Assembly (NCBI GenBank): GCA_021802555.1
Contig: JAJZRU010000010.1
Location: forward strand, 1-64,000
DNA: 64,000 nucleotides
DNA from: Pseudomonadota bacterium
GTDB taxonomy: Bacteria; Pseudomonadota; Gammaproteobacteria; Burkholderiales; Thiobacillaceae
Direction: 5' to 3'
In this document: positions 25,423-41,049 of the stretch, piece after piece
Layout of the letters: each line of letters begins with the position of its first letter
How positions within the stretch are numbered: position 1 is the first letter of the stretch
Notes under the pieces: generated by a model
What the model saw: the letters and a program-made list of their open reading frames with translations, nothing else
What the model was told of the DNA's origin: nothing
Database searches by the model: none
Position numbers and translations under genes: made by a program

Positions 25423-25498
25423 GGGTGCTTAGCTCAGTTGGTAGAGCGTCGCCCTTACAAGGCGAATGTCGGCGGTTCGAACCCGTCAGCACCCACCA
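25423..25498 (+). tRNA. tRNA-Val (anticodon TAC), integration site
   Basis: A 76-nt tRNA with encoded CCA. Acceptor arms GGGTGCT / AGCACCC pair fully, the D arm is TAGCTCAGTTGGTAGAGC, and the anticodon stem TCGCC / GGCGA encloses loop CTTACAA with anticodon TAC. Its part from the anticodon loop to the 3' end is repeated exactly at 41050-41098, marking it as the attachment site of the element to the right. The insertion regenerates an intact gene. Confidence 0.96.
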
Positions 25499-25500
25499 AA
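25452..25500 (+). repeat. attL: 49-bp direct repeat (3' half of tRNA-Val)
   Basis: The 49 bases from CCCTTACAAGG to CACCCACCAAA are identical to 41050-41098. The base before the repeat differs (G versus T) and the sequence after it diverges (TAATGC versus CCTTAT). Such a tRNA-3'-end duplication is the standard footprint of tyrosine-recombinase integration. Confidence 0.95.
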
Positions 25501-25530
25501 TAATGCAATAAATTCAGTATGTTGCAGATA

Positions 25531-25562
25531 ATAGCCGACTAAAGCAGTCGGCTATTTTTTTG
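25531..25562 (+). terminator. intrinsic terminator just inside the element
   Basis: ATAGCCGACT (31-40) and AGTCGGCTAT (46-55) form a 10-bp perfect stem with loop AAAGC, followed by eight Ts. It lies 33 bp after the tRNA-Val CCA and would stop tRNA transcription from running into the element. Confidence 0.85.
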
Positions 25563-25575
25563 TCCTCATGGACTC

Positions 25576-25653
25576 AATTTGTCCCCAATTTGTCCCCGAT
25601 CCCGCATTTTTTAGGCATTTTTTAGTTCTGCCTCTTGTCCTCGTTTTGTCCCC
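25576..25653 (+). repeat. TTTGTCCCC repeats, candidate integrase arm sites (left)
   Basis: AATTTGTCCCC occurs twice in direct tandem at 25576-25586 and 25587-25597, and TTTGTCCCC again at 25645-25653; near-copies TTGTCCTC are at about 25560 and 25635. The same word occurs near the other end of the element (40982-40990). Short repeats near both att cores are expected for arm-type binding sites of a tyrosine integrase; the assignment is inference. Confidence 0.5.
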
Positions 25654-25743
25654 GCTGGCAAAGAGCAAAATAAAAATATGCATTTCGCTTGACTTTTGGA
25701 TTTTTGTTATAAATTTATTTGCAAGCTCAACCGTTATAGTCAC

Positions 25744-26118
25744 ATGCCTACTTTTTCTCGCTCTATCTCGCCGGAAGAACTTGAAGCCAACGGGCTGCCC
25801 GTGGGTAGCGCCAACTGGGCGCGACTGCGCGGGGTATTTCGGTGGGCGGTTATGTCCGGCCGCCGCACGACGTTTTTTAAGCCTGACTATGTGGACTGGG
25901 CACTCCGCTTTCTCGCGCCGGCCTTGCGGCACGCTGCGCGGGTGGTGGCGGCCGTGGTTGACCTATTGCTTTTGCCGCTGATGGTCGCCCTTGCGGCGGC
26001 GGCGACGCTTTCTCGTTTTTTCAGAAGCTCCGACTTGCCCATAGTGGAATCTAGGCAAGTTATCCAGTTGCGTCCGGTTCATCCCGGCGCCCCTTCTCCC
26101 GCCCTGCGCTTGATTTAG
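25744..26118 (+). CDS. hypothetical protein with a membrane segment
   Basis: A 124-aa product starting MPTFSRSISPEELEANGLPV. Residues about 60-90 form a long hydrophobic stretch (VVAAVVDLLLLPLMVALAAA), probably one or two membrane helices. I do not recognise the family. The ribosome site is weak, so expression is uncertain; an upstream in-frame ATG at 25696 is less likely. It lies in the same direction as, and just before, the regulator and replication genes. Confidence 0.42.
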   Translation: MPTFSRSISPEELEANGLPVGSANWARLRGVFRWAVMSGRRTTFFKPDYVDWALRFLAPALRHAARVVAAVVDLLLLPLMVALAAAATLSRFFRSSDLPIVESRQVIQLRPVHPGAPSPALRLI

Positions 26119-26123
26119 TAAGC

Positions 26124-26175
26124 CCGGCCCTCTTAGGCCGGAACACTGAAGAATCAAGCGCGGGGTGCCGCGCTT
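26124..26175 (+). other. two adjacent hairpins before the replication genes
   Basis: CCGGCC / GGCCGG (26124-26141, 6-nt loop) and AAGCGCGG / CCGCGCTT (26156-26175, 4-nt loop, 8-bp stem) stand side by side in the 108-bp gap before the AlpA-like gene. Neither has a T-run. They could be a leader structure or an operator for the regulator; no evidence decides. Confidence 0.4.
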
Positions 26176-26226
26176 CACATCAAAGTCAAAGCGGGTTCCT
26201 CGCGCGCAGCAAGAAGGAGAACTCGC

Positions 26227-26559
26227 ATGAACGCGACCCTTTTGTGGACGACCGAAGACCTGGCGGCGCGGTTGGGTTTTCACACCGCCACGGTGTATGG
26301 CTGGATCAGTGACGGCACCAAACGCTTGCCGCCGCCCGTCATGGTCAACCCGCTTCGTTGGTTTCCTCCGGCGGTCGAGAAATGGATGCTTGATGAGGCC
26401 GAGCGCAATGAAGAAGCTGGCTGGGGGGCACGCAAGAAGAAGCAGCCCCAGGCGCCTCAACCGATCCCCATCCCCCCCGCCCAGCAGGGCGTTAGGCGGC
26501 GGGGCCGGCCGCGCAAAACTGTCGTACAAGCCAGCATGACGGAAGGGGGTGTCCAATGA
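26227..26559 (+). CDS. AlpA/MerR-like DNA-binding regulator
   Basis: A 110-aa protein with an N-terminal winged-helix pattern (LWTTEDLAARLGFHTATVYGWI, then PVMVNPLRWFPPAVEKWM), as in AlpA and excisionase-like proteins. The C-terminal half is basic and Pro-rich, with an AT-hook-like RRRGRPRK. AAGGAG precedes the ATG by 8 bp. The stop overlaps the next start as ATGA, so it heads a translationally coupled run with the primase, helicase and initiator. It may control replication or excision; which one is not shown. Confidence 0.72.
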   Translation: MNATLLWTTEDLAARLGFHTATVYGWISDGTKRLPPPVMVNPLRWFPPAVEKWMLDEAERNEEAGWGARKKKQPQAPQPIPIPPAQQGVRRRGRPRKTVVQASMTEGGVQ

Positions 26560-27575
26560 ACCCCCAGGCCAACATCATCAAGCGCCACCTAGCAGCCCTG
26601 GGCGCGCCCTTGTACCTGGTGACGCTCCGCCGCTCGGGCACGGGACGCGCCTGCACGCTCGACGAGCACACGTCCGGCGAGTTCATCGTCGGCCCGTTCC
26701 TGGCCCGCCTGCGAGCCCGCAACGCGGGCGGGGAGTGCATCTACATCACCCCGCACTGCGAGCACCACCACTACATCCTCATCGACGACCTCGACCGGGC
26801 CGGACTTGATCGACTGATGGACGGGTTCCGCCCAGCCAGCGTCTGCGAGTCATCGCCAGGGAATTTTCAAGCCGTGCTGGTGGCCGAGCGCGAGCCGGCA
26901 TCGACCAACAAGGCCGACGAAGCGCGGGAGCAATCAGCGGCGAACTCGGTCATGATTTTCCTGAACCGTCATTACGACGGCGATCCGAAAATCAGCGCCG
27001 CTCGGCACCCGTTCCGCTTGGCCGGACTCACGAATCGGAAGGCCAAATACCAACAGCCGAATGGCCTTTTCCCCTTCGTCCGCTTGATCGAAGCCCCCGG
27101 CGGCCAATGCGACCGCCTGGCCGACTTGCTTGCCCAGGAGCGCGCCCGCCGCGCGGCCCTGGCGCCGGAGGCGCGGCCGTATGCGCATCAGCAGATCGAC
27201 GACGACGATGCAGGGCTGGCGCGGCCGACATGCAGCAGCGCGATGACGCGCCGGTATGCCGACGAATACGCCCGCCAGCACGCGCTGGCGCTCCGGCTGG
27301 GGTGGGCGGTCAATGAATCAATTATCGATTGGCGGGCCACCCTGGCGCTTCTTAATGAAGGGCACGACCCCGACGACATCGAGGCCGCGCTGCTCGCCGC
27401 GTCCCCGAATCTTGCACGCCGTCACCGCTACCAGGGCGGTGCCGATTACGCCCACAGGACGGTCGCCAAGGCATCCCGCAACAGGGCCGCGAAGGCGGCC
27501 CTTTCCAGCCGCAGCGCCAGCGGCGCGGCGGCGCGGGCTGTGTCTTCCTTCGTGGACGGAGGGGGGCGGTCATGA
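26556..27575 (+). CDS. RepB-type DNA primase (RSF1010 RepB' relative)
   Basis: A 339-aa protein. The central stretch RHPFRLAGLTNRKAKYQQPNG matches the conserved segment of the RepB-family primases of IncQ plasmids and MobA-primase fusions. An upstream ITPHCEHHHYILIDDL strand fits the metal-binding active-site region. These primases start synthesis at ssiA/ssiB sites of IncQ origins. Here the primase is free-standing, not fused to a MobA relaxase as in RSF1010. Start and stop both overlap neighbours as ATGA, so it is co-translated with the regulator and the helicase gene. Confidence 0.78.
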   Translation: MNPQANIIKRHLAALGAPLYLVTLRRSGTGRACTLDEHTSGEFIVGPFLARLRARNAGGECIYITPHCEHHHYILIDDLDRAGLDRLMDGFRPASVCESSPGNFQAVLVAEREPASTNKADEAREQSAANSVMIFLNRHYDGDPKISAARHPFRLAGLTNRKAKYQQPNGLFPFVRLIEAPGGQCDRLADLLAQERARRAALAPEARPYAHQQIDDDDAGLARPTCSSAMTRRYADEYARQHALALRLGWAVNESIIDWRATLALLNEGHDPDDIEAALLAASPNLARRHRYQGGADYAHRTVAKASRNRAAKAALSSRSASGAAARAVSSFVDGGGRS

Positions 27576-28462
27576 GCACCAAGAAGAAATTCCAATTCCC
27601 CCAACCGCTGCCAATCCTGCAATTCTTGCGAGATGAGCCGCCGCCGCTGGACTTCCTTTGGCCAGGCGGCCCCTTGGCCGAAACTGTTTCGACTCTCGTG
27701 AGTCCTGGGGGAGCCGGCAAGTCGTATTTCGCACTCGCGGCCTCTATGGCAGTGGCGACCGGCGGCGCTGCTGACCCCTTGCGCCTGACGCCACAAGTTG
27801 GCGGGAGGGTCGTGTATTTGAGCCTGGAGGATATCGCGCATGTTTTGCATCACCGGGTGTCGGCAATTCGGAAAAATTCAAATCTTCCATGGCGCATCCA
27901 TGAACGAATAGCAGAACAATTAGACCTTGTGGATGCGCTTGGCGCGGGCTTCGATCTAGCTGATCCGGATTGCGCAGATGCGTTAATGGAAAGGGCTGAT
28001 GGGGTGCGACTGCTCATCATCGACACCATGAGACGCGCACACTCGCTCGACGAGAACAGCAACGGTGATATGGCGCGGGTGTTGGGTGTTTTAGAACGTG
28101 TTGCAGCACGGACTGGCGCGGCCATTATGTACTTGCACCACGTTTCAAAAAACATGTATGCAGCCGCCGAACAGCAAGCCGCTGCGCGCGGCGCGTCGGT
28201 GCTGGTCGATAACGCAAGGTGGGCCGGATGGGTGCGAAAGATGGAGGCTACCGAAGCCGAGCGCCACAGCTTGCAAGATCGTGGGCCGCCAGTCGATCCG
28301 CGCTTTTACGTCGAATGGGGGGTGTCCAAGTCTAACTATACCGCGATTCCTAAATCGCAATGGTTGGAACGCGGTAAAGGCGGCGCGCTCAATCATGTCG
28401 AGCTTTTCCCCATTGTTCCGAAGAAGAAGGGGGGCGGCGATGGCGACATCCTCGGATCGTAA
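27572..28462 (+). CDS. RepA-like hexameric replicative helicase (AAA ATPase)
   Basis: A 296-aa RecA-fold ATPase with Walker A SPGGAGKS (residues 44-51), Walker B VRLLIIDTMRRAH and the later IMYLHHVSK stretch with the conserved His pair. Length and layout agree with the IncQ RepA helicase (279 aa in RSF1010), which unwinds the origin 5' to 3' as a hexamer. The position between a RepB-type primase and a RepC-like initiator supports this over a RadA/KaiC-like role. It overlaps the next gene by 23 bp. Confidence 0.8.
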   Translation: MSTKKKFQFPQPLPILQFLRDEPPPLDFLWPGGPLAETVSTLVSPGGAGKSYFALAASMAVATGGAADPLRLTPQVGGRVVYLSLEDIAHVLHHRVSAIRKNSNLPWRIHERIAEQLDLVDALGAGFDLADPDCADALMERADGVRLLIIDTMRRAHSLDENSNGDMARVLGVLERVAARTGAAIMYLHHVSKNMYAAAEQQAAARGASVLVDNARWAGWVRKMEATEAERHSLQDRGPPVDPRFYVEWGVSKSNYTAIPKSQWLERGKGGALNHVELFPIVPKKKGGGDGDILGS

Positions 28463-29444
28463 GAAAAGCCGGAAGCGCCTGCCGGCCGATGCACGCTTGC
28501 GAATCGAGCAGGCGCGGCAGGTGGCGCGACAAGATATGGCCCTTGGTCTGATGTCTCTCTTTCGGCCAATTGCTCTCGCTCATCGTGGTCTGGACAGCAG
28601 CGGAAAACGGAAACGTGAATACCTCGAACTAGAGCAAACTTGGAAGGGCGTGAAGGTCATCGTTGCAGGCCCTGAAATGAGTCAAGCCGAACAAGGGGTT
28701 CTGTTGGCTCTCCTGTCGTTGTCCTTGCAGCAGCAGGATGGCGGCATAGCGACATTAGAAGGGCCTCCCATAGGCATGATTCCGGCCGACAAGCGCGAGA
28801 GCGGCAACGAGGGGAGCAGATACCCCGTCGTGGCTGTAAGAACGACCGTGGGACGTTTATGCTCGGTGCTTGGTGTTCCGGCCGACGGGAACAGCCGGCG
28901 CAGCGTGTTGACGGCCATACGGCGCCTCGCGGGTGTGACGCTCACGGTCATGGGTGGTGGGCGCTGGGCGACCACGCACTTGATCCACAACGCGGCAGGG
29001 GATGACGGAAGCGATTCGCTGGCAATAGTCCTTAACTGGCGCCTGACAACCGCCCTCGCCGGGCAGGGGTATGCGTCGATTCCAATGAAAGACTACCGTG
29101 AGGTGCCTCCTGGGGTTCCGCGCCTGATTTACGCCTGGCTGTGTTCTTGGCTGGCGGCACGCGGAGGGGAGAGACGGATCAGCCTAGCAGCACTGGAGCC
29201 TCACATCTATGGGGACATCGCCGTTGATCGACGTGCCGCGAGCCGCCGTCGTCAGGCCCTTAGACGAGGTCTGGTGGCCTTGCGGGAGATCGGGTGGCAT
29301 ATCGAGATCGACGACTCCGGCATGGCGACCATAGACCGTAGATCCACTGACGCGCTCGCGACATGTACAAGCTCGCGACAAACCCCTGACAAGCTCGCGA
29401 CAGCCGTTCGTCGGAACCAAGCACTGGCGCGGGTTTCCGACTGA
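28440..29444 (+). CDS. RepC-like replication initiator (IncQ type)
   Basis: A 334-aa protein starting at the ATG at 28440 behind AAGGGGGG, overlapping the helicase gene. The second half resembles RSF1010 RepC: SIPMKDYREVPPGVPRLIYA, then SWLAARGGERRISLAALEPHIYG and SRRRQALRRGLVALREIGW correspond to RepC's winged-helix segments (RISMDEVRAL, LCGYVWPS, RKRRQRVREALPELVALGW). RepC binds origin iterons and loads RepA. A longer frame back to 28098 runs inside the helicase gene and is rejected. The following 1.1-kb non-coding region would be the natural oriV. Confidence 0.75.
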   Translation: MATSSDRKKSRKRLPADARLRIEQARQVARQDMALGLMSLFRPIALAHRGLDSSGKRKREYLELEQTWKGVKVIVAGPEMSQAEQGVLLALLSLSLQQQDGGIATLEGPPIGMIPADKRESGNEGSRYPVVAVRTTVGRLCSVLGVPADGNSRRSVLTAIRRLAGVTLTVMGGGRWATTHLIHNAAGDDGSDSLAIVLNWRLTTALAGQGYASIPMKDYREVPPGVPRLIYAWLCSWLAARGGERRISLAALEPHIYGDIAVDRRAASRRRQALRRGLVALREIGWHIEIDDSGMATIDRRSTDALATCTSSRQTPDKLATAVRRNQALARVSD

Positions 29445-29766
29445 TCCAAAATACGTAAGACAACACTACAAGTGGTGGAGGCTGACGCCACCACCGAAGG
29501 TGGGTGGCTGGCAGCCCGCCTTCCGGCGGGCATGCACACAGCCCGCCCGCCCGCTCCGCCGGCGGGGGAAAGAGAAGAAGAACCAGGCCGGGCCGCGCAG
29601 CGCACCGGCCGGAGAATCACCACCAGCATGGGGGGAGGAAGGGCTGTTTCCGGCCCCAGCAAGGGCCTTGGAGGCCCGCAGGGCTGCGCCGAAGGCGCCC
29701 ACAAGGGGACTCGGCTCAGCCGATCCCTGGCGGGCTTGCCCCGCCTTCGTCAACATCAATTCAAAT

Positions 29767-29859
29767 TACACTTTCTAGGTGTAATCACCCTCTTGGAATC
29801 AACGGGTTGCGTAATTTTTACGCAGGTAGAATTTTGGCTATTTACACGTTCTGGGTGTA
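29767..29859 (+). repeat. paired TACAC-n7-GTGTA sites with a third palindrome
   Basis: TACAC-TTTCTAG-GTGTA (29767-29783) and TACAC-GTTCTGG-GTGTA (29843-29859) agree at 14 of 17 positions and start 76 bp apart. Between them TGCGTAA-TTT-TTACGCA (29808-29824) is a perfect 7-bp inverted repeat. Spacing and repetition suggest sites for a dimeric protein, either initiator iterons or operators. Confidence 0.6.
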
Positions 29860-29910
29860 GGTTGCCCGCGAATTTAAACCTTGAACGTTTAAGGCCGCGC
29901 GGCGCCGCAG

Positions 29911-29996
29911 GCGCCAGCGCCAGCCCCAGCGCCAGCCCCAGCGCCAGCCCCAGCGCCAGCCCCAGCGCCAGCCCAAGACCCAGCCCAAGACCCAGC
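29911..29996 (+). repeat. 12-bp tandem repeat, GC-rich
   Basis: The unit GCCAGCCCCAGC is repeated about five times in register, then two copies of the variant CAAGACCCAGCC follow. There is no unique spacer, so it is not a CRISPR. Being a multiple of three it creates an artificial Ala-Ser-Pro frame. It may be a replication or transfer element, or simple slippage expansion. Confidence 0.75.
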
Positions 29997-30357
29997 CGCC
30001 ACGGGCACGGCCCTGGGCGGGCCGCGCAGCGCCCCGCCAGACCCACCAGATCACGCCAGGCGCCGCGCAGAGCGCGCCGCCGGGCTTCCCCAACAATGGG
30101 AGCCGTATATGGAAGGGTCAGCAGGGGGAAGCAGATGGGGCTTATTCTTCTAAGGCGGTGGCGGTCTCCCCAATTCAAAAAGCGCATCGTTTTCTCTGGT
30201 TGTCTGAAAAAACTACTAGAACGGAACACACCCGTCGCACCTATCGGTGCGCCGGCTGTGTTGCTTCCGCAACAAGCCAGCAACAGAAAACCCGCGCCAG
30301 CCCTCGCGCTTCGCGTGATTGCATCAGCTTCGCTTTTTGCTTGCAGTGGCTTGCATG

Positions 30358-30465
30358 GTATCGGAACGATACTATCGGTAACAACTTGTTACATATTGCT
30401 TCTCATGATTGAATGTGATTGCGTCGTTATATGTATCGTGACGATACTAACTTGCAAATTTGCAA
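30358..30465 (+). repeat. palindromes upstream of the transfer operon
   Basis: GTATCG-GAA-CGATAC (30358-30372) and GTATCG-TGA-CGATAC (30433-30447) are two copies of one 15-bp dyad, 75 bp apart. Between and after them lie the perfect palindromes GTAACAACTTGTTAC (30378-30392) and TTGCAAATTTGCAA (30452-30465). They end 81 bp before the ribbon-helix-helix gene, whose product is the likely ligand. In R388, TrwA binds oriT and its own promoter in the matching place. Confidence 0.65.
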
Positions 30466-30545
30466 CTTAGTGAAATCGACAAAATCGGCTGTAAGCTGAT
30501 CTTGTTGGTTGCGATAGGCAACTTTTTTGCAAGCAGGAGAAGCAG

Positions 30546-30770
30546 ATGAAAGCGTTAACGATTCGAATCCAGGAAAACGAGTTCGATTGGCTGCAACAGG
30601 CTGCGGAGGCGGCGGCAACCACGCCTACCGGCATGTTGCGTAGCCTTATTCTGCAAGCGCGCGAATCGGCTGCAACCGACCATCGCCTGCAGGCCCTGGA
30701 GGCGCGTCTGCTGGCCGCCATCAAGCAGGTCGGTGAGTCCGTGGCCGCCCTGGAACCGGCCGAGGACTAA
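30546..30770 (+). CDS. ribbon-helix-helix protein, TrwA-like transfer accessory factor
   Basis: A 74-aa protein. Its first 45 residues fit a ribbon-helix-helix: strand MKALTIRIQ, helix EFDWLQQAAEAA, turn TTPTGM, helix LRSLILQA. A short coiled coil follows. It has a good AGGAGAAG ribosome site. The order small RHH protein, coupling protein, MOB-F relaxase equals trwA-trwB-trwC of R388, where TrwA binds oriT, represses the operon and stimulates relaxation and TrwB. That role is inferred from context and fold; the sequence is too short for a firm family call. Confidence 0.7.
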   Translation: MKALTIRIQENEFDWLQQAAEAAATTPTGMLRSLILQARESAATDHRLQALEARLLAAIKQVGESVAALEPAED

Positions 30771-30773
30771 GCC

Positions 30774-32990
30774 ATGGCCTGGCCGCGCCGCGACCCCCCG
30801 CCCCACCTCCGGGGCGATCCCCAGCCCTCACGGCTGGGTGAGGGTTTTGCCGTCGCCGCCCTGGGCAGTGCCGCATCTGTAGGACTGGCCACTTGGGGAG
30901 TCAGGAACTGGATCATCGGCAAAAACCCTTCTTGGTCCACCGTGCCCCTGATCCATTTCCCTAGTCTCGCCGCCAAGGCCATCCAGGCCGCTCCCTTGGA
31001 CGTGGCCTGGCCCGCTTGGCTCATGGTGGCCGGTGCGGGCGTCGGGATCGCCGCCAGCGCCGTGGCCGGCTACTTGGCCGGCCGGCCCAGGGGTGGATGG
31101 GCAGGCGTCGAGTGGAAAGCCGGGCCGGTTTTGCAAACCGAGCCGCCGCCGCCCGACCCCAAGGCCGGCGGCATCGAGATCGAGATCGCCCCAGGTTGGC
31201 GAATCAGCCAGCGCGACGAGACCCGCATGTTCGAAATCATCGGCTCGACTGGTTCGGGCAAAACGACCGTCATTCGTCCACTCATGGATCAAGCGGTCGA
31301 GCGAGGCGACCGGTGCCTGATCTGGGACACGAAATCTGATTTTTCAAAGGCACTCAAGAAATGCATCATTTTCGTTCCTTGGGACAAGCGGGGGGCCAGG
31401 TGGCGGATTGGCCGAGACCTGAATAGCAAAACGAAAATCCAGGGCTTTGCATCAAGACTGTGCCCAGTGCCAAAGTCCGGCGATCCCATGTGGGCGGCGG
31501 CGTCGGCGGCGGTGGTGATCGCGGCGTGCCTAAAACTTGCAGAGGAAAAAAAAGGAAACTGGTTTTTGGTAGACCTGCGCGGGCAACTGTTGGAAATGAT
31601 CCACTCCCTGGAGCATTTGCAGACAGTCGTCCAAAAGCATTACCCGGAAGCCTCCGGCATTGTGGTCGATTTGAAATCGAAAACCCTCAACTCAATCGTA
31701 GTTCAGCTAGTGGCAACGCTGCAAAACGTCCTTATGTTGGGCGAATTGGACGGGGAACTGGACAAGGAACTTTCGAAAACAAATCGGCCAGCTTTTTCTT
31801 TTTCCATAAATCAATACCTTGCCCTTGATGACGCGCGGCGCTGGCTGCCGCTGGTCATGCCCGGCAACCCAGGGGCGCCAGGGCTGGTGGCTGCCTATGT
31901 CGGGGCTGTGGTTGATGTGGCCGCCGACGTCCTCGTGTCGAGGCCCGAGCAACCGCCCCAGGCGGGCAGGTGTTGGCTGTTTCTGGATGAATTTCCGCAG
32001 CTTGGGCGAATCGACAGCGTCATCCGGTTGCTGCTTGTCGGCCGGTCAGTGGGCGCCAGGGTTGTCCTTGGTTACCAAACTCCGGCGTCGGTTGTGCGAA
32101 CGTCGGATGAAGAGACGCTTCGAGAAATACAGGCGAACACTTCAATCAAAATCTTTTGCCAGATTCAGGATCACGAGGGCCGGAAGGCGGCCAGTCAAAC
32201 ATTGGGGAAAAGCCATTGGCGAGTATGCCGAAGAACCATAAGCAACAACAGCGTCGGTGGTGTCGGGGCGCCCGGCAGCACAACAAGTACGCAATGGCAG
32301 GATGTTGAGATCGACTGCGTGACCCCAGAACGTCTGGGCGAAATCAGCCCCGATGATTATGGCGTCGAGGCGATTTTCCGAGTGGGCAAGCTCGATCCCG
32401 TTTTTCTCAAGTTGGAACACCTTGAGAAACGCGAATTCCGGGCGGGCCGCGACCCCTTGGACGTGGCGGCGCCGAAGCTGTCGTTGCACAACGAACAACC
32501 GGCATCGCCACCTGCTGCCGCCACCACGGTGGTGCCGCCCCAGGACGACACCACGGCGCACCACGCTGCCGCGCAGCCACAACAGGAGGAGCATGCCCAA
32601 GCTGCCGACGATGACATCACCGCGATGATGGCCGGCCGCCCGGCCGGGGGGCAGGTGCAGGATTACCTGCCCAGCCCGCAAATGCTCTCAAAGCTGGAAG
32701 GCGAGATCGATGGGCCTGTCGAAATGGCGGCTGATCACTTGGCCACTATGGCGGTGGACGCCGTCGCGCCAGGGCTGGGGAGCGCATTGGAAATGCTCGA
32801 CACTGTTGCGAAGGTCGTTCAATCCGGCCAGCAGGTCGGTGCCCCGGATGCTTCTCAGCCATTGCCGATCCATTCTTCCGGCGCGGCTGAAGAGCCCGCA
32901 GAGCCCGCTGCGCCGGCCAAGAAAAAACGCAAGTTCCGCCGCCGCCGTGACGCCGAGGCCGAGCCTGAAACTGAGCAGGAGATCGACTAA
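30774..32990 (+). CDS. type IV coupling protein (TraD/TrwB family)
   Basis: A 738-aa inner-membrane ATPase that would link the relaxosome to a secretion channel. Two N-terminal membrane helices lie at about 25-45 and 79-100. The ATPase has Walker A GSTGSGKTT from residue 157 and Walker B WLFLDEFPQLGRID near 401. Conserved DTKSDFS and GYQTPASV segments match TrwB. The last 180 residues are Ala/Gln-rich and end in a basic RRRRDAE tail, probably for relaxase contact. The stop overlaps the relaxase start (TAATG). It begins 3 bp after the RHH gene. Confidence 0.88.
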   Translation: MAWPRRDPPPHLRGDPQPSRLGEGFAVAALGSAASVGLATWGVRNWIIGKNPSWSTVPLIHFPSLAAKAIQAAPLDVAWPAWLMVAGAGVGIAASAVAGYLAGRPRGGWAGVEWKAGPVLQTEPPPPDPKAGGIEIEIAPGWRISQRDETRMFEIIGSTGSGKTTVIRPLMDQAVERGDRCLIWDTKSDFSKALKKCIIFVPWDKRGARWRIGRDLNSKTKIQGFASRLCPVPKSGDPMWAAASAAVVIAACLKLAEEKKGNWFLVDLRGQLLEMIHSLEHLQTVVQKHYPEASGIVVDLKSKTLNSIVVQLVATLQNVLMLGELDGELDKELSKTNRPAFSFSINQYLALDDARRWLPLVMPGNPGAPGLVAAYVGAVVDVAADVLVSRPEQPPQAGRCWLFLDEFPQLGRIDSVIRLLLVGRSVGARVVLGYQTPASVVRTSDEETLREIQANTSIKIFCQIQDHEGRKAASQTLGKSHWRVCRRTISNNSVGGVGAPGSTTSTQWQDVEIDCVTPERLGEISPDDYGVEAIFRVGKLDPVFLKLEHLEKREFRAGRDPLDVAAPKLSLHNEQPASPPAAATTVVPPQDDTTAHHAAAQPQQEEHAQAADDDITAMMAGRPAGGQVQDYLPSPQMLSKLEGEIDGPVEMAADHLATMAVDAVAPGLGSALEMLDTVAKVVQSGQQVGAPDASQPLPIHSSGAAEEPAEPAAPAKKKRKFRRRRDAEAEPETEQEID

Positions 32991-35854
32991 TGCTGAGCCT
33001 CCACGGACTTTCTGGCACCGCCGCCGCCGACGCCGCCCGCATCGCCGACTACCCCCGCGAAGACCGAGAGCGCCAGCAGGAGCAGGCCAACCAGGCCGAA
33101 GACTACTACAGTGCGGGTGGCGCCCCCAGCGCCTGGATGGGCAGCGGCGCCGCCGCCATGGGCCTGGCCGGCTCTTCTGTAGAGCGCCAGGCCGTTTTAA
33201 ATACCATGCAGGGCCTCGATCCACACACCGGTGAGCCCGTGGTGCAGGGCGCCGGACCGGCGAGAAGGTACGGCACCGATTTGACTTTTTCTGCTCCGAA
33301 ATCCGTCAGCCTGGCCTGGGCCATCGGCGACGAGAAAACACGCGCGTCTATCGAGGCCGCGCAGCGCCTGGCAGTCGCCAAAACGCTGGAGTACATTGAA
33401 TCCGAACTCTCGCTTGCCCGCCGTGGTCGTGGTGGTCACGAACGAGAATCGGCCAAGCTTGTAGCCGCGACTTACCAGCATGGCTCATCCCGCGAGCGCG
33501 ATCCTCAATTACATACGCATGCCGTATTGATGAATTTGGGCCAGCGTGTTGATGGTAGTTGGGGCGCCATCGAGTTCGGGCAAGTCTACGACAACAAAAT
33601 GTATTTGGGGGCCGTCTTTAGAGCGGCTTTGGCTCAAGAGCTGGTTAACCTGGGTTACGCCATCGAGCCGGACAAAACAGGCACCTTCCGAATTTCTGAT
33701 AGTCCACGCGATGTTGAGTGGGACAACTCCCGGCGCCGTCAGCAAGTCGAGGCCGCCCTGGCAGAGTCCGGCTTCAAGGGTGGGAAGGCGGCAGAGGTAG
33801 CTGCGAAAGCCACCAGGCGGGGCAAGGAAATCACTGACGCCGACACACTCAGGCGGGAATGGTCGGAACGCGCCGCCGCGTTTGGATTCACTCCCGAAGC
33901 GGTCGATGCGTTGCGAACCTACCAGCAGGCCGCCGAACCCGATCCCCCCGCCATCCTGGCCGGCCTCACGCAAAACCAATCGACGTTCAACCAGGACGAA
34001 TTGCGCATGGCCGCGATGGTGGCGGCCGGGCAGTCTGGGCGAGGCATCGAAGCCGCGCGTGACCTGGAGGCCGCCTGCCAGGCGCAGGCCGTTCAGCTCC
34101 GGGCGCCAGACGGTGGCCTGCATTTCACGACCAGGGAAATCCTCGAAATTGAAAAGAGCGTCGTTGCTGCCGGCAAGCGCCTGTCCACCAGCCAGGCCGG
34201 GGCCATCCCAGCCGCGACGGTGGCCGCTGCCATCGAAAAATTTGAGGCTCGGGTTGGCTTCAAGCTTTACGACGAACAGCGGGCTGCACTGGAATACATG
34301 ATGGGCGGCGGCAGTCTCAAGCTGATTCAAGGGGATGCCGGCGCTGGGAAAACGACCATTGCGGATGCTGCCCGAATGGCCTGGGAAAACGCGGGTTTCA
34401 GGGTGTTGGGTTGCAGCCTGGGAGGCAAGGCGGCGAGCGGTCTCCAAAAGGAGGCCGGCATTGAATCCAGTACCTTGGATTCTCTCTTGATGCGTCTCGA
34501 CAAAGGAGCTGAGGCGCTTGATGCCAAGACCGTCGTCGTCATGGACGAGTCCGGCACGGCGGGCGCCCGCCACATGTCTCGTTTGCTGGCCCATGTGGAG
34601 CGGGCCGGTGCGCGCCTGGTGTTGGTCGGCGACACGAAACAGTTGGCCGCCGTCGCGGCAGGCACGCCCTTCCGCGACTTGCAAAAGTCCGGTCAAGAAG
34701 TTTTTCACCTGAAACAGAACAATCGACAGATCGTTGAAAAACTTGAACGAATTCAGGCCCTCATCGGCGAAGGGAAGATGGCCGAGGCCCGCAAACAGCT
34801 TGCCCGGCATGGCCTCAAGATCAAGGACGTTCCCCAGGCCCTTGCGGAAGCGCGTGGCACCCGTGCGGCAGTGAATGACGCCGCCGTAGGTGACATCCGC
34901 AAGGCACTGGAAAGACTCGTCGAGAACAAGGCTGTCCATATCGCTCCCGTTGCCGATGGTCTGCCCCAGACCATTGAACAATGGGCGCGGCGGGGAGGCG
35001 AGCTGCGCCCACAGGAAACCTTGATGTTGGCCAGTACGCGGGCCAGCGTCGCACGCCTCAACGACGCCGCGCTGGAGCGTTTGCGTGAGAAAAATTTTCT
35101 TGGCCCTTCCGCTACCACCATGGTGCGCGACCGTGAAGGAAACAGCCTTGGACAGCGCGAATTCAGCGAAGGCGGCAGGATCATTTTCAAAAAAACGGAC
35201 CTTCGTGGCCTGGGTGTCAGCAACGGTGAGCTTGGCACGATCCAGCGCATCGATCACGGGAAGAATGGCCCGATTCTGACGATCCAGGTTGACGGTGGTC
35301 GCGTCGTGAAAATCGAACCAGACGCCCCCAAGCCCGAAGATTGGAAGTCCGCAAAAGCCGCGCCTGGACTTGGCTACAGCCACATCGAGCACGGCTACGC
35401 CATGACTGTCCACAGCGCCCAAGGCGTCACGGTAGACCGGGCCGTGGCCTATGTCGATGCTGGCCCCTTGATGTCCAAGGAACTCGCATACGTCGAACTC
35501 AGTCGTGTCCGAATTTCCACCGACGTTGTTTTCTCATTCGAGACCATCGCCCGCGAAGAGGCCGCGCACGACATCGATCCGGCCGAGGCCGAACCAGACC
35601 TCGACCGCGTGAAAAAGATCATTGCACGCATGGAACGGTCTGCTGAAAAAACGAGCAGCCTTGATTTTGAGGTTGTAAACGAACCTCTCGAAAAATCCGT
35701 TACTGCACTTGAGGCCGAGGCCGCCGCGCCCACCGCGCCGCAGCCGCAACCCGAACCCGCGCCGGCCACGCCCGCGCCAGAACCCCAGCAACAGCAACCC
35801 GCACTTCAGCAGGAGATCGAAAATGTCCTCGACGAACTCGAACTTGAGCCGTAA
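32990..35854 (+). CDS. MOB-F relaxase-helicase (TrwC/TraI family)
   Basis: A 954-aa two-domain protein. The relaxase domain has candidate nicking tyrosines Tyr21 and Tyr39/Tyr40 and the metal-binding histidine triad His164, His175, His177 (QH...DPQLHTHAV), with the same 11-residue spacing as TrwC. The family stretch RYGTDLTFSAPKSVSLAW is intact. A RecD-like helicase follows, with Walker A GDAGAGKT at 448-455, MDESGTAGARHMSRL, LVGDTKQLAAV and motif VI MTVHSAQGVTVDRA. The C-terminus is a Pro/Ala/Gln-rich tail. It nicks oriT and unwinds the transferred strand. Confidence 0.93.
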   Translation: MLSLHGLSGTAAADAARIADYPREDRERQQEQANQAEDYYSAGGAPSAWMGSGAAAMGLAGSSVERQAVLNTMQGLDPHTGEPVVQGAGPARRYGTDLTFSAPKSVSLAWAIGDEKTRASIEAAQRLAVAKTLEYIESELSLARRGRGGHERESAKLVAATYQHGSSRERDPQLHTHAVLMNLGQRVDGSWGAIEFGQVYDNKMYLGAVFRAALAQELVNLGYAIEPDKTGTFRISDSPRDVEWDNSRRRQQVEAALAESGFKGGKAAEVAAKATRRGKEITDADTLRREWSERAAAFGFTPEAVDALRTYQQAAEPDPPAILAGLTQNQSTFNQDELRMAAMVAAGQSGRGIEAARDLEAACQAQAVQLRAPDGGLHFTTREILEIEKSVVAAGKRLSTSQAGAIPAATVAAAIEKFEARVGFKLYDEQRAALEYMMGGGSLKLIQGDAGAGKTTIADAARMAWENAGFRVLGCSLGGKAASGLQKEAGIESSTLDSLLMRLDKGAEALDAKTVVVMDESGTAGARHMSRLLAHVERAGARLVLVGDTKQLAAVAAGTPFRDLQKSGQEVFHLKQNNRQIVEKLERIQALIGEGKMAEARKQLARHGLKIKDVPQALAEARGTRAAVNDAAVGDIRKALERLVENKAVHIAPVADGLPQTIEQWARRGGELRPQETLMLASTRASVARLNDAALERLREKNFLGPSATTMVRDREGNSLGQREFSEGGRIIFKKTDLRGLGVSNGELGTIQRIDHGKNGPILTIQVDGGRVVKIEPDAPKPEDWKSAKAAPGLGYSHIEHGYAMTVHSAQGVTVDRAVAYVDAGPLMSKELAYVELSRVRISTDVVFSFETIAREEAAHDIDPAEAEPDLDRVKKIIARMERSAEKTSSLDFEVVNEPLEKSVTALEAEAAAPTAPQPQPEPAPATPAPEPQQQQPALQQEIENVLDELELEP

Positions 35855-36059
35855 ACCATTCGAATTTCCCGACTTGGACGGGATGGCCGACGCCCTGTCC
35901 ATAAAAATCGTGTGGTGGCTCGCTGGTCGGCGCCGCCAGCGCCACGGGCTGCCGTTGCCGGCCAATTGGTACGAGGTGCCGCGTGTGACGCCTGGGCTCT
36001 TGCGGTGGTGCCGCCAGCAGTCTGCGCGGTTGGTCATCCGGCGTTGTGTATTTTTTTGA
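35823..36059 (+). CDS. small hypothetical protein, 78 aa
   Basis: Starts at the ATG at 35823 with AGGAG 7 bp upstream and overlaps the relaxase C-terminal codons by 32 bp in another frame. The product is basic and Trp/Arg-rich (WWLAGRRRQRHGLPLPANWY). I do not recognise it. The overlap suggests it is co-translated with the relaxase. Confidence 0.6.
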   Translation: MSSTNSNLSRKPFEFPDLDGMADALSIKIVWWLAGRRRQRHGLPLPANWYEVPRVTPGLLRWCRQQSARLVIRRCVFF

Positions 36060-36074
36060 TTTGAGGGGGTGACC

Positions 36075-36302
36075 ATGAATCCAGTTCGCCGAGCTTTGAA
36101 ATCCCGCCACGAATTTCTTGTCGGCGCGGCCGAGGATGCCGCCGATGAAGATTGGCAAGATCGGGTGGGTGCCGCCGGTAAGCGCCTGGCCCAGGCGGGC
36201 GGCGAGGGCGAGGCGGAAGTCCGGGCTTTCTTTATTTTTTTCTTGCTCCTGGCCGCCGTTGCCGTCTTCGCCTTTTTTATTTTAGGTGTCAGTAATTCGT
36301 GA
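36075..36302 (+). CDS. small tail-anchored membrane protein, 75 aa
   Basis: The ATG at 36075 follows GAGGGGG; an in-frame GTG lies 6 bp earlier. The first 50 residues are charged and helical, and residues about 52-73 form one hydrophobic helix (FFIFFLLLAAVAVFAFFILG) near the C-terminus, so the protein should sit in the inner membrane facing the cytoplasm. Family unknown. It lies 15 bp after the previous gene. Confidence 0.6.
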   Translation: MNPVRRALKSRHEFLVGAAEDAADEDWQDRVGAAGKRLAQAGGEGEAEVRAFFIFFLLLAAVAVFAFFILGVSNS

Positions 36303-36314
36303 GGGAGGGCGATC

Positions 36315-36563
36315 ATGCAAAAAATGGTTTATAGACGCTGCCCAAAAAACGAGCAATGGGAAGATCAAATTTTTTTGCGCGCGCGTAATGCTCGCAAAAA
36401 AAAGCTTGGCGACCCCGCTGACGAAGCGCAAGACCGCGCGGCGCGGGCCGACGAGCGCAGCGATATGCGGCTGCTTTTTTGGGTTGGGGGGTGCTATCTC
36501 GCGCTGCGGCTTGGCGAGGCCGGCATGACTTGGTTTGGCAAAATTTTTCTTGGGTGGAGCTAA
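36315..36563 (+). CDS. small hypothetical protein, 82 aa
   Basis: A GAGGGAGGG ribosome site precedes the ATG. The product is very basic in the first half (FLRARNARKKKLG) and has a hydrophobic helix near residues 53-68 (LLFWVGGCYLALRLG). The stop overlaps the next start (TAATG). Family unknown. Confidence 0.58.
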   Translation: MQKMVYRRCPKNEQWEDQIFLRARNARKKKLGDPADEAQDRAARADERSDMRLLFWVGGCYLALRLGEAGMTWFGKIFLGWS

Positions 36564-36853
36564 TGGAATTCGAAAAGTCTTTGCTTCCATTGCGGGAATT
36601 CGCCGGTTTGTATTACTCGTGTTTGGCTAATTTTTCGGCAGTGGGAATACCCACCGATGACACCGCCGATCCGATTTGCGACGACGCTGATTTGATTGTT
36701 TGCGTTCAACTATTGCGGCGCGGCGTGCCGGCCGATGAGCTGGCCGGAGCCGTGTGCCATTCCCCAAATTGGCGAGTGCGGTGGGGCGGCCATGCCTACG
36801 CGAGGCGGACGGTCAAGCAGGCGCGGGGAATTTTGGAGACGATGAAAAAATGA
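36563..36853 (+). CDS. small hypothetical protein, 96 aa
   Basis: Starts MEFEKSLLPLREFAGLYYSC at the TAATG overlap and ends at an ATGA overlap with the next gene. It contains several cysteines (YYSCLANF, DPICDDAD, IVCVQLL, AVCHSPNW), which are not arranged as a clear zinc motif. The C-terminus is basic. Family unknown. Confidence 0.58.
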   Translation: MEFEKSLLPLREFAGLYYSCLANFSAVGIPTDDTADPICDDADLIVCVQLLRRGVPADELAGAVCHSPNWRVRWGGHAYARRTVKQARGILETMKK

Positions 36854-37059
36854 GCACTGCTGAAAAAACAGGCACCCCAAAAGAGATCGGAACGATGGGA
36901 AAGCACGAAGCTTCGACTCGGTTCCCGCCTTCCGTGGTACGTGAATCGTTGCAAACAAACAACGCGAAAAGTAAAACTGTTTCGCATGATAATATCTTGC
37001 AAAACCCTTGCGAAACCCGCGCCAATACTGGCATTGCGCCCGGTCGGCAATCGCGTTAA
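36850..37059 (+). CDS. small hypothetical protein, 69 aa
   Basis: The ATG overlaps the previous stop as ATGA, the main argument that it is translated. The product is hydrophilic, Lys/Thr/Asn-rich and probably disordered, with no motif. Family unknown. Confidence 0.42.
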   Translation: MSTAEKTGTPKEIGTMGKHEASTRFPPSVVRESLQTNNAKSKTVSHDNILQNPCETRANTGIAPGRQSR

Positions 37060-37108
37060 TGTCCCTTCACCCGCACCCTGCGGGCCTCAAAACTTGAAAG
37101 GACACGCG

Positions 37109-37330
37109 ATGAACAACCCGACCCCCACCATCCCCATCCCCACCCGCATCCCCTTGCCGAGCCCCGCCGCCCTGGCGGCCGTGCCGGACATCCTGCCGCC
37201 GGAGGTGGAGCGGCTGCTTGATTGTCTAGAGCGAGTTGCCGAAGCGTGGCAACCTGCCACGCCCGGCGATGCCGAGTTGCTGGACAGGCTGGATGCTGCC
37301 AGGGCGTCCGCTTTTGGCGTTACGCGGTAA
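37109..37330 (+). CDS. small hypothetical protein, 73 aa
   Basis: AAAGGA precedes the ATG at 37109. The N-terminus is Pro-rich (NNPTPTIPIPTRIPLPSP), followed by an acidic helix (PEVERLLDCLERVAEAW). Its stop codon lies inside the first of five GTTAC-type palindromes (37319-37331). Family unknown. Confidence 0.55.
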   Translation: MNNPTPTIPIPTRIPLPSPAALAAVPDILPPEVERLLDCLERVAEAWQPATPGDAELLDRLDAARASAFGVTR

Positions 37331-37656
37331 CATTCGGAGAGTTACGCTGTAACGTAAAATAGTTATAGTGTAACTTTATTCAGCCTCGTATTCGGCGCCC
37401 ATTTTTTCGGCCCAAGCCAGGATTGCTTTCTCGACAATCTCCCTTTTTTTAATTCCGTCCGCCTGGTCGCAAAGCCGCGCCAGGGCTGCGGCGGCGCTCG
37501 ATGACAGCATCACTTGGAGCCTGGTCAGCAGCAGGCCGTCGGGGTCGTGGAGCGCCCGCTTCCTGTATTCTTTTTGCCGCTCCGCATTGCTCTTTCTCAT
37601 GCTTTTTCCCTTCCAGAAATAGTTACATTGTAACTATTCTAATGTTACGCTGTAAT
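37319..37656 (+). repeat. five copies of a 13-bp palindrome GTTAC-n3-GTAAC
   Basis: Copies: GTTACGCGGTAAC (37319-37331), GTTACGCTGTAAC (37341-37353), GTTATAGTGTAAC (37362-37374), GTTACATTGTAAC (37622-37634) and GTTACGCTGTAAT (37644-37656). Starts within each group are 21-22 bp apart, two helical turns. Three copies lie just 3' of the minus-strand repressor-like gene and two in its promoter region, so they look like operators bound cooperatively by its product. Confidence 0.82.
37376..37600 (-). CDS. small repressor-like protein (ribbon-helix-helix type), 74 aa
   Basis: The product begins MRKSNAERQKEYRKRAL, a start shared by small plasmid and phage regulators, then TRLQVMLSSSAAAALARLCDQ and IKKREIVEKAILAWAEKM give a strand-helix-helix pattern. 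The gene is flanked on both sides by the 13-bp palindromes, which points to autoregulation. It is the only gene in this part of the element on the minus strand, opposed to the transfer-side genes. Base composition is slightly lower in GC than its neighbours. Fold assignment is by eye. Confidence 0.65.
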   Translation of the reverse strand: MRKSNAERQKEYRKRALHDPDGLLLTRLQVMLSSSAAAALARLCDQADGIKKREIVEKAILAWAEKMGAEYEAE

Positions 37657-38059
37657 AAGTCAAGGGGGGGCTGGCGCCGAAGGTTTTTTGCTTGCGCGTG
37701 GGTCGCGCCGAAGCTGACATTCCGCCTACACTGCACCCACGGTATCGCCAGGTCGCTGCGAGCCGCGCAGGGCGGCAAGCAACCCCTCGCGCCAGCCCTG
37801 ACGGGCCGGGGGCTCTGCTACGCGCCGCCCCCTCTGTCACTCCGGCTTGCAACCGCCCTAGTCGCGCGCGGCTCTCCGCTCAAGGGATGGGCGATACCGA
37901 GGGTGCAGATTCAACAGGCGGAAGACAACCGCCTTTTTTCGTCGTTCTGTTTTTTCTCCCCCCCCCTCCGCCCCCCTTCGGGGGGAACGGGCTCTCCAAG
38001 GGTGCAGGTTTTTAAACGGCGCATTCCGTGCCGAACCACTCCCCCAGGAGCAAAACGCC
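37601..38059. other. 459-bp gap with hairpins
   Basis: No credible gene. Left part: promoter and two operator copies of the minus-strand regulator. Right part: very C-rich, with two structures. The first is GGCGG-AAGACAA-CCGCC followed by six Ts (37917-37939), the second CCCCC-TTCG-GGGGG (37972-37985). The stretch GAGGGTGCAG recurs as AAGGGTGCAG at about 37900 and 37997. The right end should hold the promoter of the DUF6573 gene. Confidence 0.5.
37917..37939 (+). terminator. intrinsic terminator
   Basis: Stem GGCGG / CCGCC with a 7-nt loop, followed directly by TTTTTT. The stem is only 5 bp but all GC. It reads in the plus direction, though no plus-strand gene ends nearby, so it may end a non-coding transcript. 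Confidence 0.5.
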
Positions 38060-38497
38060 ATGACCTATTCCCACCCCTCCGCGATGTCCGACATGATCGA
38101 GATTTTCGGCTCCCCGATCCATACTTACAGCCGTGCCCAAGCCCTGGCCGATGGGGTCTTGGTGGACGTGTCAGAAGCCGCCGCCGAGCGCGGCTTCAAG
38201 GTGCCCGTAGCCATGACCAGGACGGTCTGGGAGGACTGCGTAGCTTGGGCCGAAGCCGACAGCGACCGCCAGACTTACCAAGACCAGGAAGGCCGCCTGC
38301 ACGACGTTCTATGGCTGGCCTGGACGTATGCCCGCATCGCCCGGCGCCGCGATACCGACACCATCACCTACGAGCTGCGGCGCGTGCCCAGGGGGGGCCG
38401 TGCCACCCGTCCCCGGCGGGTGGTGCTGACTCTCAAGATCCACGGCGGCGACCACGGCGAGCCGGTCTGCACGATCATGATGCCCGGCGAGGGCTGA
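38060..38497 (+). CDS. DUF6573-family protein
   Basis: A 145-aa protein whose N-terminal half carries the DUF6573 signature: TYSRAQALADGVLVDVSEAAAERGF, then VPVAMTRTVWEDCV and GRLHDVLWLAW. The C-terminus ends VLTLKIHGGDHGEPVCTIMMP. The family is common on plasmids and integrative elements and has no known function. AGGAG precedes the ATG. A copy of its last 15 codons is found again at 38878-38930. Confidence 0.8.
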   Translation: MTYSHPSAMSDMIEIFGSPIHTYSRAQALADGVLVDVSEAAAERGFKVPVAMTRTVWEDCVAWAEADSDRQTYQDQEGRLHDVLWLAWTYARIARRRDTDTITYELRRVPRGGRATRPRRVVLTLKIHGGDHGEPVCTIMMPGEG

Positions 38498-38569
38498 AAA
38501 TTTTTTTCAATACCCCTAAATATTATTGTCACTGTGACGTTAATAAGATATCACCTTCAGGAGTCCGCC

Positions 38570-38881
38570 ATGAACATGAACATGAACATGAAAAACGACA
38601 CCGCCACAAAACCAGGCCGCCCCAAAACCGCCAACCCGAAATCAGGGGCGGAACGCACCAGGTCATATCGGGCGCGAGTTGTTTTCACTAATCCTGAATT
38701 GGGCGCAATTAAGTTCATATGGGGGTATGGATCGAACCTCGACACGCGCGAGGCGTGGGATGAAACGGCTTGGATGCTCGAAGGCATACGGATTTGGACA
38801 ATGAGCGAAGCGAAAATCGAAGAACTGCGATTTTTGATAGGACTGGCCGACGTGCGCGCAGAAATGTCGGAGGGGTGTTGA
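38570..38881 (+). CDS. hypothetical protein, 103 aa
   Basis: The ATG at 38570 follows AGGAG. The gene opens with a run of the hexamer ATGAAC (three copies), giving MNMNMNMKND. Residues 20-40 read NPKSGAERTRSYRARV, sharing the pattern KSxAERxxxYRxR with the start of the 37376-37600 product, so the two may be distant relatives in DNA binding. The C-terminal half is helical. Family unknown. Confidence 0.6.
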   Translation: MNMNMNMKNDTATKPGRPKTANPKSGAERTRSYRARVVFTNPELGAIKFIWGYGSNLDTREAWDETAWMLEGIRIWTMSEAKIEELRFLIGLADVRAEMSEGC

Positions 38882-38930
38882 CCCTCAAAATCAAAATCCA
38901 TTCCGGCGACCACGGCGAGCCACATCACTA
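38878..38930 (+). pseudogene. duplicated 3' fragment of the DUF6573 gene
   Basis: GTTGACCCTCAAAATC... to CGGCGACCACGGCGAGCC repeats, with changes, the stretch at about 38422-38462 of the DUF6573 gene; it encodes LTLKIKIHSGDHGEP against LTLKIHGGDHGEP. The rest of the gene is missing, so it is a relic of a second copy, overlapping the previous gene's stop. Confidence 0.6.
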
Positions 38931-39015
38931 CTTGCTCGCTTGCTCGATGGCGGTGACGCTGCAGAAGGCAAATAGACGACCCACTCGATCTGATGATAGA
39001 GTTTGCTAAGGAAGC

Positions 39016-39402
39016 GTGGGAGAAAACGTGACTGAGAAGCTAGAGCCCTTGACCATCAAGGAAGTCGATGATTTCCTAGCTGGGTTAGATAAGAAACGTT
39101 GTCCTTGGTGCGATGGCAACCAATGGGGCGTTCATATTGACAAAACGAATGACTCTCCAAATCTGCGCGGGCTCCCTCAAATGCAAATCAGTCTTGGAGA
39201 TGATGGATTGCTAAAGGCCCAGCTACATGTAGGGGCAAACGCACTTCCGATAATCGTCGCGCAGTGCAATGATTGTGGGTATATGTATACTTTCAATTAC
39301 CTGTCTATCATGGCTAAGATTCGTCGGCTGGAATCTGCGCTAAAGGGTGACGATGTCAACTCAGGTGGTGAGCAGGGTGACCAAACCGAAAGTCCCGCAT
39401 GA
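39016..39402 (+). CDS. zinc-ribbon-like protein, 128 aa
   Basis: Start GTG at 39016 after AAGGA, or GTG at 39028 after GGGAGA. The product has two paired cysteines, KKRCPWCDGNQW (about residue 30) and VAQCNDCGYMYTF (about 92), a likely zinc ribbon enclosing a beta-rich segment. The C-terminus is acidic. The gene is AT-richer than the replication and transfer genes and overlaps the next start as ATGA. Family not recognised; with the next gene it forms a two-gene cargo beside the integrase. Confidence 0.62.
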   Translation: MGENVTEKLEPLTIKEVDDFLAGLDKKRCPWCDGNQWGVHIDKTNDSPNLRGLPQMQISLGDDGLLKAQLHVGANALPIIVAQCNDCGYMYTFNYLSIMAKIRRLESALKGDDVNSGGEQGDQTESPA

Positions 39403-39902
39403 CTGCATCAGTTCATTCCATAGATCCTAATGCTGATATAAATCGTTTCCTGTCAGATTCAGCCGACGATGTTACGGTTGCAAGAGCTACGACACCCATC
39501 ATGAACGCACCAACGCGTGAGGAATTTGAGGCCAGGATAGAGGCCGTTGAAGCCAGGATGGACACCCGCGTCGTTCAGATGACCGGGGAGCTTCATGGAT
39601 TCGTGACAGAACAGCGCGCTCGCGATATTGAGCGCGATAAGCGTTTTGAAGAACGCGATAAGAGGATTGAACTTCTAGTAACGAATGCAGAACAGTCCGC
39701 CGACGTAGCTCGTTCGCTAAAATCAAGCATGTGGGCAGCATCGGCCGCCATTATTCTTGCCGTGATCGGTACGGTTGTGGCTTCATACTTCGCAAACCAA
39801 CAATCCAATTTGGCTATTGTTCAGTCGGTCATCGCTGCATTTCAGCAAGGTGCGCAGTCTCCCAGTTCCGCCACTAACAAACGTGGCGCACTCAAACCAT
39901 AG
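39399..39902 (+). CDS. coiled-coil membrane protein, 167 aa
   Basis: Translationally coupled to the zinc-ribbon gene (ATGA). Residues about 35-100 are a long charged coiled coil (REEFEARIEAVEARMDTRV, RFEERDKRIELL), followed by one membrane helix at about 110-130 (MWAASAAIILAVIGTVVASYF) and a short tail. The topology is a cytoplasmic coiled coil anchored in the inner membrane. Proteins of this shape are common in mobile elements, but I know no function. Its 3' end overlaps the integrase gene by 11 bp, tail to tail. Confidence 0.65.
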   Translation: MTASVHSIDPNADINRFLSDSADDVTVARATTPIMNAPTREEFEARIEAVEARMDTRVVQMTGELHGFVTEQRARDIERDKRFEERDKRIELLVTNAEQSADVARSLKSSMWAASAAIILAVIGTVVASYFANQQSNLAIVQSVIAAFQQGAQSPSSATNKRGALKP

Positions 39903-40932: not shown

Positions 40933-40933
40933 G

Positions 40934-40990: not shown

Positions 40991-41049
40991 GAATTTTGAA
41001 ATAATCCGGAAACCCGCACCAATCCTAGCACATGGTGGGTTGATTTTCT

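Follow-up and report, generated by a model that had tools for sequence, protein, structure and literature searches.

The window analysed here, a 64,000-nucleotide stretch forming part of contig C25 of a 2.77-Mb genome, contains at positions 29445 to 30545 a palindrome-rich, non-coding region of 1.1 kb between a repC gene and a set of trw-like genes. What does this region do, and which of its sites serve replication and which serve transfer? A sequence-only reading had proposed this interval for both origins. Our comparisons make it quite probable that the region serves as a common control hub for a mobilizable element integrated in the chromosome, and that it holds oriT and part of oriV.

The host element is 15.6 kb long (25452-41098) and is inserted at tRNA-Val, with lon and a ppiD-like gene on either side. 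Its borders and principal genes are the following.

25452 to 25500, plus strand: attL, a 49-bp direct repeat over the 3' part of tRNA-Val(TAC) (tRNA 25423-25498); the identical 49-mer lies at 41050-41098
26556 to 27575, plus strand: repB', IncQ-type primase (Pfam RepB_primase 8.9e-34), 85% identical in protein and DNA to its counterpart in a second element, C24
27572 to 28462, plus strand: repA, replicative helicase (AAA_25)
28440 to 29444, plus strand: repC, IncQ-type initiator (Pfam RepC 1.2e-15), start codon uncertain
30546 to 30770, plus strand: small RHH-type auxiliary protein (TrwA/NikA-like), a weak assignment from a Pfam NikA-like match of 0.0048, below the cut-off
30774 to 32990, plus strand: TrwB-type coupling protein (TrwB_AAD_bind 4.9e-53)
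32990 to 35854, plus strand: TrwC/MobF relaxase-helicase (Pfam TrwC 2.5e-76 plus AAA_30)
39892 to 41031, minus strand: tyrosine integrase adjoining attR (Pfam Phage_integrase 8e-26)
41050 to 41098, plus strand: attR, the second copy of the 49-bp repeat

A small HTH gene also lies inside the element. The repBAC genes are intact and full length and together provide the primase, helicase and initiator that characterize an IncQ-type replicon. TrwC combines an N-terminal TrwC/TraI relaxase domain with an SF1 helicase, the arrangement of MOBF proteins; it scored 236.8 bits with NCBIfam MobF (cut-off 100), matched F TraI and R388 TrwC in the PDB, and shows a QLHTH motif and an N-terminal YY. No VirB4-family ATPase was found in the genome, and within the element no type IV secretion channel gene was recognised. 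Since direct att repeats, an integrase and a relaxase with its own predicted oriT are present and a VirB4-family gene is absent, the element is, on its gene content, an integrative mobilizable element (IME) that would require a helper for movement.

The same genome carries a second IME (L013 1294-17414, G000 contig C24), inserted at tRNA-His between its own 49-bp repeats and with the same gene order and hub motifs. The cargo regions of both IMEs share a conserved gene for a DUF6573 protein (window 38060-38497; L013 3796-4368). Elsewhere in the window, GTTACnnTGTAAC-like sites at 37325-37380 and 37616-37660 lie on either side of a minus-strand ORF of 74 aa (37376-37600), whose product looks like a small autoregulated DNA-binding protein, and an Rfam group II intron match covers the left edge (49-125).

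Proteins compared between the window and C24 elements are 35-45% identical (the RepC pair 39%), with the exception of RepB at 85%. DNA similarity is essentially limited to repB (85%) and to three hub blocks, 29525-29784 (75%), 29979-30091 (89%) and 30217-30312 (75%); just two other matches were detected, one of 53 bp near the start of repA (77%) and one with many gaps across 29842-29982 (69%). Because similarity is so nearly confined to repB and these blocks, the hub is by this measure among the element's most conserved parts, a comparison of two copies that both reside in one genome. Recombination between the co-resident copies could have homogenised parts of the hub, given that its sole close relative in the data sits in the same genome. 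More broadly, a primase and hub blocks held in common while the other proteins have diverged suggest that elements residing together exchange modules. Reading the hub blocks as coding sequence was rejected, as they have no convincingly shared frame and their indels are not multiples of three, and an Rfam search of the hub returned only sub-threshold chance matches.

A tblastn scan retrieved several more elements whose gene sets are identical or similar in composition (L059, L060, L062 and L068), which indicates a family rather than a single oddity. At the nucleotide level, blastn of the hub against the other retrieved elements gave no match, so the hub blocks are known from this genome only. 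No close plasmid relatives were found by DNA. A RepC search of the plasmid collection yielded one distant IncQ plasmid; the genome-contig and viral-contig collections gave no RepC match, and the viral-contig collection none for TrwC. Relatives of TrwC at about 41% identity are present on L047 and L048, two MAG contigs that start inside the operon and from which no hub is recoverable.

Which part of the hub would serve transfer? The features on this side are listed below.

30217 to 30231, minus strand: TAGAACGGAACACAC around nic, conserved and common to C24
30227 to 30251, minus strand: predicted oriT core, the hairpin CGCACC-GATA-GGTGCG followed by ACGGGTGT^G, with the predicted nick between 30228 and 30227
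30236 to 30251: the same hairpin in its plus-strand reading, CGCACC-TATC-GGTGCG, adjoining the nic motif ACACACCC
30358 to 30372: dyad GTATCG-n3-CGATAC, proposed RHH site, conserved in C24
30433 to 30447: second GTATCG-n3-CGATAC dyad, proposed RHH site, without a C24 counterpart

The GTATCG pair had been placed on the transfer side; our analysis predicts the nick at 30227/30228 and not at that pair. On the minus strand the nick context is GGTGCGACGGGTGT^GTTCC, 8 nt from the hairpin, and the C24 nic region reads GGTGCGTGGGGTGT^GTTCC. The genome has exactly two copies of the 14-base core GTGCGNSGGGTGTG, one per IME. In shuffles of the region, GGGTGT^G at 7-10 nt after a hairpin arose in 0.44%. 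Furthermore, 11 MOBF loci, both elements included, have the GGGTGT^G core ahead of their trw genes, on the strand pointing away from those genes and usually directly after a hairpin. The nic site of the F plasmid is GCAAAAACTTGTTTTTGCGTGGGGTGT/GGT (PMC5422253), and that of R388 is GCGCACCGAAAGGTGCGTATTGTCT/ATAG, with 8 nt from hairpin to nick (PMC4814116). Because the core recurs and matches F nic, the hairpin stem and spacing match R388, and the combination is rare in shuffles, we place the likely nick between 30228 and 30227 of the minus strand. This F/R388 layout places nic 3' of the hairpin, as in MOBF origins with an F- or R388-type core.

No exact GGGTGTG stands ahead of trwC in L059 or in several more distant MOBF loci, and the core thus defines a subgroup. 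A plus-strand nic was also considered, as the other hairpin arm of C24 likewise reads GCGTGGGGTGT; it was rejected because only the minus-strand GGGTGT^G is common to the core carriers, and the minus-strand choice also puts trw last, as in F. The nic-flank 16-mer had six matches in viral contigs, all chance occurrences in phage genes. In several elements, copies of a CCGCGCCARYACTGGC-like motif are found in the oriT region, downstream of trwC and near attR (window 30292, 37017 and about 41011; L013 12664 and 1378, both on the minus strand; L015 13179), possibly as a shared regulator or integrase-arm site.

With F/R1, whose MOBF relaxase is TraI, the window element shares the hairpin 5' of nic, the GGGTGT^G core and an RHH-type accessory gene close by, and C24 and several relatives agree with F at GCGTGGGGTGT^G. 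In contrast to F/R1, it is integrated, has no identified TraM-like gene and no mating-pair genes, and encodes a relaxase of 954 aa rather than about 1,760. The oriT-trwABC region of R388 (IncW) has the same operon order (RHH, coupling protein, relaxase), the same CGCACC/GGTGCG stem and the same 8-nt spacing to nic; it differs in its core, TATTGTCT^A rather than GGGTGT^G, in its trw type IV secretion genes, which the window element lacks, and in its replicon, which in the window element is IncQ-type.

The interval from nic to the RHH gene, which holds the GTATCG dyads, is where the sites of TrwA (R388) or TraY (F) are found. The single C24 dyad is about as far from the nic block (146 bp versus 139 bp, counted from where the GAACGGAACACACCC block starts), and the C24 RHH homologue is 39% identical to that of the window, with a NikA-like match of 2.6e-4. 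We propose that the RHH protein binds these dyads. Could they, and the TTACAC dyads nearer repC, instead be nothing more than operators for repressors that the element encodes, without any part in an origin? Operators typically show dyad symmetry, and the GTATCG pair sits 99-188 bp ahead of the RHH-trwBC operon, before whose RHH gene no sigma-70-type promoter was found. However, an operator role is compatible with origin function, as R388 TrwA both binds oriT and regulates, and the GTATCG dyads take the nic side of the RHH gene, as TraY/TrwA-type sites do. We regard operators alone as an unlikely explanation and retain the proposal that the GTATCG dyads belong to oriT.

On the replication side, the relevant features begin within repC itself.

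29350 to 29402, plus strand: candidate RepC iterons, three CTCGCGACA-type copies with spacings of 17 and 22, inside the repC 3' end and just outside the 29445-30545 span
29525 to 29765: GC-rich hairpin block A, within the 75% DNA match to C24
29766 to 29784: dyad TTACAC-n7-GTGTAA, in an A+T-rich stretch (29766-29895)
29842 to 29860: dyad TTACAC-n7-GTGTA, conserved in C24
29874 to 29892: third dyad, TTAAAC-n7-GTTTAA, degenerate yet symmetric, 32 bp from the second; C24 has TTACAC-n7-GTGTA there
about 29906 to 29978: 12-bp tandem repeat CGCCAGCCCCAG, mostly absent from C24 and so not conserved
29979 to 30091: GC-rich hairpin block C, the 89% match to C24

Of the three IncQ Rep proteins, RepC is the one that binds the iterons, RepA unwinds the DNA, and RepB provides priming at ssiA and ssiB (PMC6925257); the oriV of these plasmids has direct-repeat iterons with GC-rich and AT-rich stretches (PMC7557826, PMC6925257). 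The hub resembles this layout, with the candidate iterons followed by a GC-rich block, the A+T-rich stretch (42% GC) carrying the TTACAC dyads, and a second GC-rich block (80% GC). Like RSF1010 and IncQ-3 plasmids, the element has repB, repA, repC and candidate direct-repeat iterons; it differs from them in its free-standing primase gene, its MOBF mobilisation genes with their own coupling protein, its integration at a tRNA and candidate iterons that run into repC.

Repeats of 21-22 bp at the repC 3' end are present in all seven replicons compared (the window, L016, L059, L060, L062, L068 and C24). L016, an IncQ plasmid from the same bacterial family, has four 22-bp repeats across its repC end. 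The window iterons are the weakest of the seven, being few and irregular (17/22), and a 22-bp spacing was reached by 0.2% of control stretches. The repeat sequences differ completely between elements, as expected with a diverging initiator. We consider the repeats at 29350-29402 likely to be the RepC iterons. The proposed location of both origins between repC and the trw-like genes is well supported, except that the probable iterons lie upstream of that interval, in the repC 3' end.

Blocks A and C may hold the priming sites of RepB (ssi-like), a suggestion we base on the way the blocks track the conserved primase (85%) and not the diverged initiator. The ssi sites are sequences of about 40 nt with a hairpin (PMC4434180); a search of the conserved GC-rich hairpin blocks for the ssi consensus gave no match. 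In two of the related elements, L060 (2879-3545) and L059 (2999-3670, both in oriented sub-sequences), a primase-like gene comes after the iterons; the long inverted repeats on either side of it contain G-runs and are good candidates for ssiA and ssiB.

An oriT without an accompanying oriV would also account for part of these data, with the rep genes as relics or acting in trans and 29445-30091 as a remnant with a regulatory or structural past. In favor of this, the integrated element is replicated along with the chromosome, its iterons are few and irregular, and the 12-bp tandem repeat is not conserved. Against this, repBAC is intact and full length, repeats recur at the repC end in every replicon of the set, and the hub blocks are 75-89% conserved in DNA alongside repB, a sign that they were recently selected or exchanged together. 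We judge an oriT-only region improbable and favor the presence of part of oriV.

A separate issue is the ligand of the TTACAC-type dyads, which had been taken as the sites of the initiator; the repeats at the repC end would then be incidental. The dyads are element-specific and repeated, and they lie on the rep side in an A+T-rich stretch. Yet the dyads are the same in the two elements although the RepC pair is only 39% identical and the 22-bp repeats are unrelated; IncQ-family initiators bind direct repeats, four of which stand at the repC end of L016; and none of the other IncQ-type elements that were read showed such dyads. Because the dyads stay the same where RepC and the iterons differ, they are probably not the specific site of RepC, and we hold their assignment to RepC to be quite doubtful. 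The candidate iterons remain our preferred RepC sites.

The dyads themselves are well founded. Both reported pairs are present, the first as TTACAC-n7-GTGTA at 29766 and 29842 (76 bp apart) and the second at 30358 and 30433 (75 bp apart), as are the three perfect palindromes and the 12-bp tandem repeat at the places given for them. The sequence-only reading overlooked the dyad at 29874, the 17/22-bp direct repeats, the hairpin and the ACACACCC motif. Its suggested check, site conservation in related elements, was run, and both site types are kept in the C24 element. Exact GTATCG-n3-CGATAC has three sites in the genome, two in the window element and one in C24; exact TTACAC-n7-GTGTA has four, two in each. 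Both dyad types are element-specific and not due to chance. Arm-6 interrupted palindromes number 20, a count somewhat inflated by mosaic GC, where 2,000 dinucleotide shuffles averaged 3.7, and the repeated-palindrome families had shuffle frequencies of 0.0005 to 0.0015. That the sites are a chance or low-complexity artefact of a GC-rich spacer, as the simple tandem repeat and GC-rich palindromes might suggest, is refuted for the dyads and the nic core by genome-wide exclusivity, the shuffle tests and conservation in the second element, and has a negligible probability overall.

The near-equal spacing of the pairs, about seven helical turns, had been read as a sign of looping. The spacing is real here and is not conserved in C24, where only one GTATCG dyad is present and 32 bp separate the two TTACAC dyads, and looping over seven turns was dropped. 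Counting the degenerate copy, there are three TTACAC-type dyads in the window and two in C24, and their common spacing is 32 bp, about three helical turns.

Together these observations are consistent with the following cycle, if the element is active. The integrase would excise the element from tRNA-Val as a circle. The RHH protein would bind the GTATCG dyads, bend the DNA and help the TrwC relaxase to load, and it may also repress its own RHH-trwB-trwC operon. TrwC would bind the CGCACC/GGTGCG hairpin arm and nick the minus strand at GGGTGT^G (30228/30227), so that the rep side would enter the recipient first and trw last, and TrwB would hand the DNA to a type IV channel from a helper element. 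For replication, RepC would bind the 22-bp iterons that close its coding gene, the A+T-rich stretch carrying the TTACAC dyads would open, RepA would unwind and RepB' would prime at sites in the conserved GC-rich hairpin blocks. The excised circle would in this way replicate by IncQ-type strand displacement.

Each part of the hub is of a known kind. SGI1 and GISul2, IMEs with replication genes (PMC5704250), are likewise integrated, have no channel of their own and carry plasmid-like replication genes. A 2017 review knew of no canonical IME with a MobF relaxase and called the replication of excised IMEs unexplored (PMC5704250); MOBF IMEs have since been reported in Mesorhizobium, and most of these belong to the Ti-like TraA type (PMC8627217). 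In the open-access literature found, the combination of an IncQ-type replicon, MOBF genes with their own coupling protein and an F-like nic in one IME is not described. We tentatively suggest a little-described IME family that joins an IncQ-type strand-displacement replicon and an F-like MOBF oriT in one compact hub, in which iterons and initiator may diverge freely and primase and priming-site blocks may be exchanged as a cassette. The analysis provides exact coordinates for a predicted oriT nick and candidate RepC iterons in an unstudied IME, and the hairpin with GGGTGT^G is a signature usable to find other mobilizable elements. Two questions, that of MobF IMEs and that of how excised IMEs replicate, are thus joined in a region of 1.1 kb.
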